From Mollicutes bacterium (GTDB lineage: Bacteria; Bacillota_I; Bacilli_A; Izemoplasmatales; Izemoplasmataceae), in contig PWEL01000005.1 in assembly GCA_003553945.1 (NCBI GenBank), positions 1 to 42,279 of the forward strand: 42,279 nt of DNA, read 5' to 3'. Positions 36,209-40,331 of the stretch are shown here, piece after piece. Below the pieces are notes generated by a model, which saw only the letters and a list, made by a program, of their open reading frames with translations, did not search any database and was not told the origin of the DNA. The position numbers and the translations under genes were made by a program. Position 1 is the first letter of the stretch. Every line of letters begins with the position of its first letter.

Positions 36209-36667
36209 TCAATCCACGGAGAAAAAGTGCTCTACGAATTCATACGGGCGACGGGCATACTCAAAACGGACGGAATCAAGACCGGCCATGTTCACTTCTA
36301 TATGACCATATTTCAAGAGTCTTCCGAACCTGGTCGTCCTTACCTTCATATTGATGACCTTGTCAAGAGGAATATGCATATCCTGTCTTACAGCCGCTCT
36401 CTCCCGATAGATGATGCGCAGGTTCGTCAGTTCGATACGCTTTTTGCGAACTCTGAATATATAACCGATATACAAGATGAAATACACAGCGATCAATGCG
36501 TAGAATAGATATTGAAGCATCGCGTCCTGAAATTCCAGAAAAGCCATGTACGCCACAGCCACGATGATGAGAAGATAAAGCATCATAAACTTTCTGAACG
36601 GAAACAAAAAAGCGCGCCAAAGCGACATCTTGATGACCATCAGGGTTTCTTCATTGCGTTCAGCCAT
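36209..36667 (-). CDS. Membrane protein with bacterial PH-like domain (bPH2)
   Basis: 152 residues. Two membrane segments (about 26-46 and 50-72) are followed by a beta-rich cytosolic domain (85-150) with LTNLRIIYRE, MHIPLDKVINMKVR and RLLKYGHIEVN, the usual pattern of YdbS/YdbT-like bacterial PH domains. The role in this family is not well defined; some members protect against antimicrobial peptides. GGGGGGGA precedes ATG 36667. It is first in a two-gene unit with the 126-residue protein, with an extended -10 promoter upstream. Confidence 0.75.
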   Translation of the reverse strand: MAERNEETLMVIKMSLWRAFLFPFRKFMMLYLLIIVAVAYMAFLEFQDAMLQYLFYALIAVYFILYIGYIFRVRKKRIELTNLRIIYRERAAVRQDMHIPLDKVINMKVRTTRFGRLLKYGHIEVNMAGLDSVRFEYARRPYEFVEHFFSVD

Positions 36668-36732: not shown

Positions 36733-37548
36733 TCAGTCCGTCGTTTCATAAGTGTAATCATTCCGTTTCAACAGAATGAACAATGTGAGGGTTGAAATGA
36801 AGATCACGCTGGCTCCTAAGAGTTCAATGGACTCCTCCATGGGGAAATCGAGCAGGAAAAAACCTATGGGATGGCCGAAAGTGTCCTGAGCATAAGCTTC
36901 GGCGATCTGCCACACATCCATATGCATCACATCGAGCCGATCAACAAGCGCTGTACCTACCTGGGTATACCAACCGAACATATGGCGGGACGCAGACAGC
37001 ATGGCGCCGGCGCCATAGAGGACATAACCCGCTATAAGCCATTTGAAGGCCTTTGGATAAGCGAAAAGGACCCGTCTCAATTTATAGACCGAAAGCAGCA
37101 TCAAAACACCGAACAGTGCATAGAGTCCGACCTCGACACCGATGCCGAGCCAGGAAGTCAAACGCTCCTCCACTCCGAAAACCCCTGTCACAAAGCCGCG
37201 GAGGGAATGGCGGAGATTGCCCGTATCCTCGAGCAGTAAAAGACCGACTGCTACGCCGAAGAGCAAAAAGGCGCGCCAGTGTACATCCTTTTTCACCAGC
37301 ATGACGCCCAGCATCGTCCCAGCGAGCAGGATCGTGCCGGTGTTCGACGCATACTGCAGAATCTCCGTAACACCCTCCTCCTGAAAGAGCACAAACCAGA
37401 TAAGTGGGGCGGTATCCACTCTGTCCTCCATGAGGGACTGCAAATCGAACACATTCAGAAAATCAACCAATAGGACAGCCAAAAAGACCAGTATAAGATA
37501 CGAAACAATTAAAATGAACAGCACTCTGGAAACCTTCGGTGTTTTCAT
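36733..37548 (-). CDS. Multi-span membrane protein of unknown function
   Basis: 271 residues with about seven hydrophobic segments (near 8-30, 68-85, 92-108, 135-155, 168-190, 240-265 and one weaker). I recognise no family. The loop between segments 1 and 2 contains acidic residues (DLQSLMEDRVDTAP), and a long loop near 190-235 is rich in H, M and D. ATG 37548 is preferred over ATG 37566 because GAAAGGGG lies between them. It is divergent from the aminomutase gene, with its own promoter, and is separated from the PH-domain gene by 65 bases. No function is offered. Confidence 0.75.
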   Translation of the reverse strand: MKTPKVSRVLFILIVSYLILVFLAVLLVDFLNVFDLQSLMEDRVDTAPLIWFVLFQEEGVTEILQYASNTGTILLAGTMLGVMLVKKDVHWRAFLLFGVAVGLLLLEDTGNLRHSLRGFVTGVFGVEERLTSWLGIGVEVGLYALFGVLMLLSVYKLRRVLFAYPKAFKWLIAGYVLYGAGAMLSASRHMFGWYTQVGTALVDRLDVMHMDVWQIAEAYAQDTFGHPIGFFLLDFPMEESIELLGASVIFISTLTLFILLKRNDYTYETTD

Positions 37549-37574
37549 GCAACAAACCCCTTTCATTTCTTATA

Positions 37575-37617: not shown

Positions 37618-37646
37618 TTGCCAGGGAATAGGGATTATAATATAAT
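37618..37646 (+). promoter_or_regulatory. Promoter of the aminomutase/EIIA-like operon
   Basis: TTGCCA (37618-37623), 17 bases, consensus TATAAT (37641-37646), 36 bases before the start. Confidence 0.75.
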
Positions 37647-37681: not shown

Positions 37682-38947
37682 ATGTCCGAAGACAAAAGAA
37701 CCGTCGCCCAGCAACGGGCAAAGACACTTAAAGGACGTATTGAAGACTATCTCGAGGCACGGGAGGACATACCCCGCGGCCTTTACATGCAAAAAAGCCT
37801 GCAAGAAAGAAAACAACGCATCCTCGAGATCCTCGGAGGCAGCGAAGAGGATTGGAACGACTACCGCTGGCAGCTCGCCAACCGCATCAATGACGTGGAC
37901 ACGCTGAAGAGAATCATCTCCCTCACAGACGATGAGACCAATGCCATCCGGAAAGTGGACAAGCTCTTCCGCTGGTCCATATCACCCTACTACCTCTCAC
38001 TCATAAACCCCGACGAAGTATTCGACCCCGTCAAACTCATGGCCATGCCCACCTTCCTCGAAATAGAGGACACCTACAGCGACCTTGACCCGATGGGCGA
38101 GGAGTACACCAACCCCGCCGGCAGCATCACGCGCCGCTACCCGGACCGCCTCATCATCAACGTCACCAATGAATGCGCGATGTACTGCCGCTACTGCCAG
38201 CGCCGCAGAAACATCGGCGAGAAGGATGAAGCCAAACCGAAGGAGGAAGTGCAGGCTTCGATCGACTATATCAGAGATCATGAAGAGATCCGCGACGTCC
38301 TCATCACCGGCGGCGACCCCTTCACACTCTCCGATGGCCGTCTCGAATGGATCATAAGCCAGCTCTACGAGATCGACCATGTCGAATACATACGCCTCGG
38401 CTCCCGCACGCCCGTCACCATGCCTCAGCGCATCACCGATGACCTTGTAGACATGCTCAAGAAGTACCACCCCATCTACATCAACACGCATTTCAACCAT
38501 CCGATGGAGATCACAGACACCTCAAAAGCGGCATGCGAAAAGCTCGCCGATGCCGGCATCCCCCTCGGCAACCAGGCCGTTCTCCTCAACGGCATCAACA
38601 ACGACAAGTTCGTCATGCGCTCGCTCAACCACGAGCTCTTGAAGATCCGCGTCAAGCCCTATTATCTCTTCCACGCCAAGGCCGTCCGCGGCACAAGGCA
38701 TTTCAACACCAACATCGACGACGGCATAGAGATCATGGAGTACCTGCGCGGCTATACATCCGGAATGGCGATCCCGACATATATCGTCAACGCCCCGGGC
38801 GGGAAAGGCAAGACCCCCATTCTTCCGGAATATCTTGTCTCGAGGGGCAAGGACCATTTCACCATCCGCACCTGGGAAGGTGAAGTGCTCACCCACGAAA
38901 ACCACCCCACCATCGACATCAAATCCATCCTGAAAAAGCAGTCCTGA
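37682..38947 (+). CDS. eam: Radical SAM aminomutase, most likely glutamate 2,3-aminomutase
   Basis: 421 residues of the KamA family, using SAM, a [4Fe-4S] cluster and PLP. The cluster cysteines are C165, C169 and C172 (CAMYCRYC), GGDP is at 210-213, and the PLP lysine is K377 in APGGKGKTP. In lysine 2,3-aminomutase two aspartates (D293 and D330 of the clostridial enzyme) hold the substrate's side-chain amino group. Here the aligned residues are K333 (LFHAKAVRG) and N370 (YIVNAPGG), the exchange described for glutamate 2,3-aminomutase. The product would then be beta-glutamate, a compatible solute. The gene is followed 28 bases later by an EIIA-like gene. Family assignment is firm; substrate rests on these two residues. 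Confidence 0.85.
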   Translation: MSEDKRTVAQQRAKTLKGRIEDYLEAREDIPRGLYMQKSLQERKQRILEILGGSEEDWNDYRWQLANRINDVDTLKRIISLTDDETNAIRKVDKLFRWSISPYYLSLINPDEVFDPVKLMAMPTFLEIEDTYSDLDPMGEEYTNPAGSITRRYPDRLIINVTNECAMYCRYCQRRRNIGEKDEAKPKEEVQASIDYIRDHEEIRDVLITGGDPFTLSDGRLEWIISQLYEIDHVEYIRLGSRTPVTMPQRITDDLVDMLKKYHPIYINTHFNHPMEITDTSKAACEKLADAGIPLGNQAVLLNGINNDKFVMRSLNHELLKIRVKPYYLFHAKAVRGTRHFNTNIDDGIEIMEYLRGYTSGMAIPTYIVNAPGGKGKTPILPEYLVSRGKDHFTIRTWEGEVLTHENHPTIDIKSILKKQS

Positions 38948-38975: not shown

Positions 38976-39422
38976 ATGAAGCGCACCTTCAACATGCCAT
39001 TGAAAGGGACCGTCCAGCCGATCGAGAACGCAGGGAACGAGATATTTTCGGAAAAAAGACGTGGGGACGGTTTTCTCGTCAGTCCTTCTGAAGGCTATGT
39101 CTATGCGCCTTTCAGAGGCGTGATCACGGGGACGAGCCCAACCAAGCACACCATCATCATCGAGGACGCCGACGAGGTCCAGATGCTCATCCAGGTGAGC
39201 ATCGACGACGAGGTGCCGCTCGAAGAGGCGTTCGTCCAGCATGTCAAGCAGAACGAAGTCATCGAAAAAGGCGAGCTCATCCTCGAATTCGACCCGAAGC
39301 TGCTTGAGGAAAGAGGTTATTCAACCACTACCGCCGTCATATTCCTCGGCAAGACATTCAAAAAGAAAAAGACGCGAAGACGCATCAATAGAAGCGTACG
39401 CGCCAAAGTGCATTCCGACTGA
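38976..39422 (+). CDS. EIIA(Glc)-like protein lacking the phosphorylated histidine
   Basis: 148 residues with the fold pattern of the glucose PTS EIIA domain: GDGFLVSPSEGYVYAPFRGVI, PTKHTIIIED, IDDEV, GELILEFDPKLLEERGYST. In active EIIA the phosphate acceptor H90 (E. coli numbering) lies in the HFGID motif. Here the aligned segment reads LIQVSIDDEV, so the acceptor is Q73; the helper histidine is kept (H58). It cannot be a normal phosphocarrier and is better seen as a regulatory or structural relative. A basic tail (about 128-146, KKKKTRRRINR) is extra to the family. SD GGGAGG precedes ATG 38976. It is in an operon with the aminomutase. Confidence 0.85.
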   Translation: MKRTFNMPLKGTVQPIENAGNEIFSEKRRGDGFLVSPSEGYVYAPFRGVITGTSPTKHTIIIEDADEVQMLIQVSIDDEVPLEEAFVQHVKQNEVIEKGELILEFDPKLLEERGYSTTTAVIFLGKTFKKKKTRRRINRSVRAKVHSD

Positions 39423-39460
39423 GCCGGCATGAAAAAAGCCGGCTTTTTTCATGCCGGCTC
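39421..39460. terminator. 40-base perfect palindrome acting as bidirectional terminator
   Basis: The whole of 39421-39460 equals its own reverse complement. GCCGGC occurs three times, separated by A6 and T6 runs. Either outer GCCGGC can pair with the central one, followed by six T, giving an intrinsic terminator on each strand for the convergent EIIA-like and galU genes. Confidence 0.9.
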
Positions 39461-39464
39461 CCGT

Positions 39465-40331
39465 TCATAGTTTGAGTGATCTGAGATATTCCTTGAAGCT
39501 TTCCTTGAGGGAGGGATCCCTGAGAGCGAACTCCACAGTCGCCTGCAGGAATCCCTGCTTGTCGCCGACGTCATAGCGTCTGCCCTTGAAATCATACGCG
39601 TACATGGACCTTTTTTCCGACAAGGTGAGCAAGGCGTCGGTGATCTGGATTTCATTGCCTTTGCCCGGCGGTGTCTTTTTAAGAACGGGGAATATATCGG
39701 GACTGATGACATAGCGCCCGAGCACAGCGACATTCGAAGGCGCTTCTTCAACACCGGGCTTCTCGATCAGGCCGTTGACGGTGTATAGCCTCTCATCCAC
39801 TTGTTCACCATCGACAATGCCGTATTTGACGACATCCTCGCGGGGGACTGTCTGTACACCGAGGATCGACGCGTCATGTGTCTCGTAGGCATCGATGAGC
39901 TGCTTGAGGCAGGGGTCCCCCTCGTGATACACTACATCGTCGCCGAGAAGCACGGCGAAGGGTTCGTCGCCGACAAATCGCTCGGCCTTCAAGACGGCAT
40001 GGCCCAGCCCCTTCGGCTCCTTCTGCCTCACGGTATGGATGTTGGCGAGGTCCGAGATCGAGCGCACGGTCTTCAAAAGGTCCTCTTTCTCCTTCTTCTG
40101 CAGTTCGAGTTCGAGCTCGACAGAACGGTCGAAGTGATCCTCGATCGATGTCTTATGACGCCCCAGGATGATGAGGATATCCTCGATTCCGCTCTCGACC
40201 GCCTCCTCGACGACATATTGAAGCGTCGGCTTGTCGACGACCGGAAGCATCTCCTTGGGAATCGCCTTGGTCGCGGGCAGGAATCGTGTCCCCAGCCCCG
40301 CGGCCGGTATGACTGCTTTTCTGACTTTCAT
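39465..40331 (-). CDS. galU: UTP-glucose-1-phosphate uridylyltransferase
   Basis: Makes UDP-glucose for envelope glycolipids and polysaccharides. 288 residues, normal length. The nucleotide-binding PAAGLGTRFLPATKAIPKEM is complete, followed by VDKPTLQYVVEEA, the LLGDD metal-binding aspartates, GLIEKP and AVLGRYVISPDIF, all diagnostic. SD AAAGGGGA precedes ATG 40331. It lies 17 bases after the Nudix gene's stop region and is probably co-transcribed with it. The gene ends at the shared palindrome. Confidence 0.97.
   Translation of the reverse strand: MKVRKAVIPAAGLGTRFLPATKAIPKEMLPVVDKPTLQYVVEEAVESGIEDILIILGRHKTSIEDHFDRSVELELELQKKEKEDLLKTVRSISDLANIHTVRQKEPKGLGHAVLKAERFVGDEPFAVLLGDDVVYHEGDPCLKQLIDAYETHDASILGVQTVPREDVVKYGIVDGEQVDERLYTVNGLIEKPGVEEAPSNVAVLGRYVISPDIFPVLKKTPPGKGNEIQITDALLTLSEKRSMYAYDFKGRRYDVGDKQGFLQATVEFALRDPSLKESFKEYLRSLKL

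Follow-up and report, generated by a model that had tools for sequence, protein, structure and literature searches.

The protein encoded at positions 38976-39422 of the window (the whole analysed stretch of 42,279 nucleotides from a Mollicutes bacterium) is probably a pseudo-EIIA: an additional EIIA of the GlcNAc/glucose PTS type, no longer capable of phosphotransfer and retained as a folded protein with a binding role. We put the probability of this reading at about 60%. EIIA(Glc) is the textbook example of a phosphate carrier with an additional regulatory role exerted by binding. Judged from its sequence, a non-transport role of the protein together with the loss of the phosphorylation site appears well supported. 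The gene and its surroundings comprise the following features.

37618-37646, forward strand: sigma-70-like promoter upstream of the aminomutase gene (TTGCCA-17-TATAAT; 11/12 in a consensus scan, which is no proof of function).
37682-38947, forward strand: glutamate 2,3-aminomutase (radical SAM), gene 1 of a two-gene operon (TIGR04368, 678 bits; cut-off 650).
38976-39422, forward strand: EIIA(Glc)-family protein with Gln (Q73) as acceptor residue and the helper His (H58) kept (open reading frame, PF00358, alignment with 1ggr_A, AF2, Foldseek).
39147-39149, forward strand: H58 codon CAC, at the position of the E. coli helper H75 (sequence, alignment).
39192-39194, forward strand: Q73 codon CAG, at the position of the E. 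coli acceptor H90 (sequence, alignment).
39354-39419, forward strand: basic C-terminal tail, residues 127-148, predicted to be disordered, located where canonical EIIA has its C-terminal segment (AF2 models, charge count).
39421-39460, no strand assigned: near-perfect inverted repeat, a bidirectional terminator separating galU from the EIIA-like gene (RNA fold -30.9 kcal/mol, z -7.3).
39465-40331, reverse strand: galU, the convergent neighbour, conserved in congeners (TIGR01099, 399 bits; synteny).

The open reading frame is intact and encodes 148 amino acids from an ATG to the stop codon at 39420-39422. A purine-rich AGGGAGG resembling a ribosome binding site lies 5' of the ATG. The deduced protein matched PTS_EIIA_1 (PF00358) over profile positions 3-122 of 127 with 106.4 bits (E=1.1e-30, cut-off 27.2). 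Its score with TIGR00830, the glucose PTS IIA subfamily of NCBIfam, was 85.2 bits and thus below the cut-off of 97.5. Residues 7-124 aligned with residues 24-141 of the 1ggr_A chain (E. coli EIIAGlc) without gaps and with an offset of 17. This register placed H58 on the helper H75 and Q73 on the acceptor H90, in agreement with the initial annotation. The acceptor column contained His in all 34 other aligned EIIAs, which were taken from the same genome, the order, the class and one Blautia, and Gln only in the 38976-39422 protein. A different His at the acceptor place is ruled out by the ungapped alignment.

Apart from the acceptor, D38 (N21), A76, G92, T95, V96, L98 and G100 are changed. The acceptor His, D38, G92 and A76 are each invariant across the other 34 EIIAs. 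F41, T73 and H75 (E. coli numbering) are retained. On this comparison Q73 is one part of a rewritten active site and no isolated point change. The CAG codon lies amid an otherwise diverged stretch and is therefore no single-base sequencing error. More generally, a sequencing or assembly error behind Q73 is ruled out by the many linked changes and by the synteny with congeners on both sides.

The AF2 model of the protein (pLDDT 88, pTM 0.78) exhibited the beta-sandwich fold of EIIA(Glc). Foldseek matched this model to 1gpr and 1f3g with a TM score of 0.79 and an rmsd of 1.3-1.4. The model may be taken as compatible with the EIIA fold rather than as proof of it, since the input alignment consisted mostly of canonical EIIAs; the model of the canonical paralogue from the same genome rests on the same alignment. 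Together with the PF00358 match and the position of H58, the predicted fold bears out the persistence of the fold markers and the helper histidine. In common with EIIA(Glc)/Crr of E. coli (1f3g) and B. subtilis (1gpr), the protein has the fold (Foldseek TM 0.74-0.79), 31-36% identity, the helper His, T73, F41 and the glycines and prolines of the fold. It differs from them by Gln at H90, Asn at D38, a rewritten G92-G100 loop, a charged docking face and a basic C-terminal segment predicted to be disordered.

This segment had been described as a basic tail of about 20 residues added to the protein. The last approximately 22 residues are indeed strongly basic, and the last 24 carry a net charge of +10 compared to +1 in the paralogue. 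An addition is ruled out, as the two proteins have the same length (148 and 147 aa). The AF2 model of the paralogue contained additional end strands at residues 2-6, 129-132 and 141-146, the last two with low confidence, and a helix at 78-81 within the active-site loop. In contrast, the model of the 38976-39422 protein lacked these end strands and this helix, and residues 127-148 were disordered. Since the model lacks the C-terminal strands and residues 127-148 are basic and predicted to be disordered, the tail represents a transformed C-terminal segment.

The same genome encodes EI, three proteins matching the HPr family and an EIIBC(Nag)-EIIA-DUF7916 operon (GlcNAc PTS) with the canonical EIIA paralogue (C31:76345, L001). 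This paralogue shares about 40% identity over 126 aa with the 38976-39422 protein and is its nearest relative in the tree. Unlike the latter, it keeps all catalytic residues and lies within the PTS operon. Consequently, with EI, HPr and a normal EIIA present, the 38976-39422 protein is a second, presumably phosphotransfer-incompetent paralogue. The DUF7916 protein of about 301 aa follows EIIA in GlcNAc-type PTS operons of three genomes belonging to this family (L075:8799-9701, L004:568-1479 and L006:1911-2837); it has no NCBIfam name and is a conserved PTS-linked gene.

The substitution found at Q73 has been engineered at the same site of V. cholerae EIIAGlc, where H91Q is the locked dephospho allele (PMC10208484). 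Thus, phosphotransfer should be dead in the 38976-39422 protein, which would neither take phosphate from HPr nor donate it to EIIB. In V. cholerae H91Q a single change was made on an otherwise intact face, whereas the 38976-39422 protein has its entire face altered. B. subtilis PtsA (YpqE) is likewise a small soluble EIIA that is not built into a transporter polypeptide; PtsA receives phosphate from HPr and works for transporters that lack an EIIA (PMC6148471), and in this respect the 38976-39422 protein appears to differ. A literature search found no natural EIIA proteins lacking the His, which is no proof of their absence.

In order to locate the substitutions, the docking face was defined independently as the 20 positions of E. 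coli Crr that contact glycerol kinase (table in PMC5770620, numbering counting Met1). Residues unseen in the other 34 EIIAs occupied 10 of the 20 face positions compared to 11 of 105 positions elsewhere (Fisher p=1.4e-4), the face set being that of E. coli EIIAGlc-GlpK, a distant homologue of the protein. The enrichment persisted without Q73 (p=4e-4), and the same bias was seen in no other EIIA row (next row p=0.10). The face substitutions include M/V/L46 to R, I45 (position 45) to R, F71 to S, V96 to E and D38 to N. Among 38 hydrophobic columns 14 were substituted relative to both nearest relatives, and eight of these 14 are still hydrophobic. The six substitutions that break the hydrophobic character are found at the positions of V46, I70, F71, A76, V96 and L98. 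Of these, V46, F71 and V96 are among the 20 published contacts, and I70, A76 and L98 are sequence neighbours of such contacts. Off the face all hydrophobic substitutions are conservative. The lost conserved columns cluster in residues 73-83, beyond chance in most window sizes used for the scan (permutation p 0.007-0.13). Going by these substitutions, the docking face has been rebuilt by the introduction of charged and polar residues, and the core off the face is kept.

A kept fold with a rebuilt face argues against plain imitation of normal EIIA docking. An EIIA that stays unphosphorylated at all times and binds its usual targets regardless of the sugar supply would agree with the experimental H-to-Q lock of EIIAGlc (PMC10208484) and with the conservation of F41, T73 and H75. 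We nevertheless consider such a locked mimic quite improbable: the substitutions listed above change the face that is common to the targets, and a single His-to-Gln exchange already weakens target binding, as observed for H91Q and ChiS (PMC10208484) and, in a different EIIA family, for H65Q and GlpK (PMC5770620). Because the face for HPr and targets is itself rebuilt, the protein should not simply dock like dephospho-EIIA. This weakens the earlier proposal of a regulator mimicking one fixed state of EIIA; the binding adaptor proposed alongside it fits better. With the docking face rebuilt as well, the best reading is therefore a pseudo-EIIA binding protein, which would bind another partner via the altered face, the tail or both.

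Decay offers another explanation for these changes. The gene might be an in-place remnant of a PTS operon on the galU side, functionless and still open in frame by chance or recency. A sister genome (G004) indeed contains EIIBC-EIIA-DUF7916 beside galU at this position, on a contig that ends just past EIIBC, and its galU is the nearest to that of the window (79.5% compared to 72-73%). The complete PTS operon with the canonical EIIA elsewhere in the same genome also speaks for a relic. In the tree the 38976-39422 protein grouped with the paralogue and the EIIA of G004, with weak support (72/86) and on a long branch; its end branch measured 2.16 versus 0.32 for the paralogue. The orthologue searches, a further point for decay, retrieved none in the order, class, phylum, genome_contigs and viral_contigs scans. 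A second protein with Gln was likewise absent from the order (90 genomes), the class (395) and the phylum (392, with largely overlapping hits); the genome_contigs pattern scan gave one Blautia EIIA with the acceptor His kept, and the viral_contigs scan gave nothing. As the gene occurs without orthologue in a single genome, a 64%-complete MAG, selection on it is not directly measurable.

Identity to the paralogue was 55%, 70% and 35% at first, second and third codon positions, respectively. When neutral decay was simulated from the start of the divergence, the frame was still open in about 3% of the runs. Under late-only neutral decay, starting from about 68% identity, no stop arose in 16-21% of the runs; the simulation by itself is therefore insufficient to exclude late decay. 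Against a relic stand the strong terminator, the intact frame with its RBS-like site, the conservative nature of the off-face hydrophobic substitutions and the concentration of changes on the docking face, which is unlike uniform decay. The similarly fast EIIA L071 had unseen residues at 4 of 20 face positions versus 21 of 104 elsewhere. Overall, a relic seems unlikely, and a function of the protein is likely, although an open reading frame by itself is no proof of it.

L071 (1501-1827, genome G139) is a stand-alone EIIA with the acceptor His kept; its DTVxLxGxGF loop is lost and reads TDKIRHKDLF, and its changes are dispersed over the whole protein. A further EIIA match, L060 (G263:C39:11733-12101), contains two TAA stops near the C-terminal end and may be a transporter domain that is decaying or ends differently.

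The EIIA-like gene follows the aminomutase gene in the same direction after a gap of 28 bp. The terminator behind it has 18-bp arms, with an identical 28-mer present on both strands, and an Rfam search of the window detected nothing. NCBIfam assigned the first gene to glutamate 2,3-aminomutase above the cut-off, and not to lysine aminomutase. A bacterial PH-domain protein (36209-36667) and a divergent membrane protein without Pfam or NCBIfam match (36733-37566) are encoded in the window as well; both are conserved beside the aminomutase in the congeners G003 and G005. The initial annotation had placed the gene in an operon with the aminomutase and not with sugar genes. The aminomutase operon stands; however, the gene faces galU, and the sister genome has a GlcNAc-type PTS operon there. 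In an economical scenario, such an operon may have entered beside galU in an ancestor common to the window lineage and G004, a genome without a detected aminomutase. The window lineage would then have retained or copied solely the EIIA at this slot, as a remnant or a duplicate.

A pairing of aminomutase and EIIA genes had been suggested as a check. EIIA was present at none of the 29 other aminomutase loci of the order, three of which have less than 300 bp of downstream flank. In G002, G003, G005, G028 and G079 aminomutase and galU are direct neighbours that face each other, and no EIIA separates them; the congener aminomutases without adjoining EIIA show 74-80% identity. A general partnership is thereby rejected as unsupported, and the aminomutase does not need EIIA. 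These loci also speak against a dedicated regulator of glutamate 2,3-aminomutase that ties the synthesis of beta-glutamate, an osmolyte, to the state of the cell. The co-directional genes, their short gap and the common terminator would suit such a regulator. Metabolic enzymes are also among the known binding partners of EIIAGlc (glycerol kinase 1gla; 3our). All in all, we regard a dedicated regulator as very improbable.

For the preferred pseudo-EIIA, production together with the aminomutase is to be expected because the gene lies in the aminomutase transcription unit, and by neighbourhood alone the aminomutase is a candidate partner. It is doubtful, though conceivable, that a natural pseudo-EIIA with lost acceptor and rebuilt face was recruited to the beta-glutamate operon and became a new regulator there, one that has a basic tail and binds proteins or nucleic acids. 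Methanogens and a few bacteria have beta-glutamate as an osmolyte (PMC1224877), and a link of the protein to the osmotic state via this compound is possible. With a single genome at hand, the present weight of the finding is modest. If the reading is true, the protein would be a natural EIIA copy without chemistry in which the scaffold is kept, a natural counterpart of the laboratory H-to-Q mutant. The binding role of EIIA would then be detachable from phosphotransfer, and the sugar PTS might be linked to the synthesis of the osmolyte beta-glutamate.
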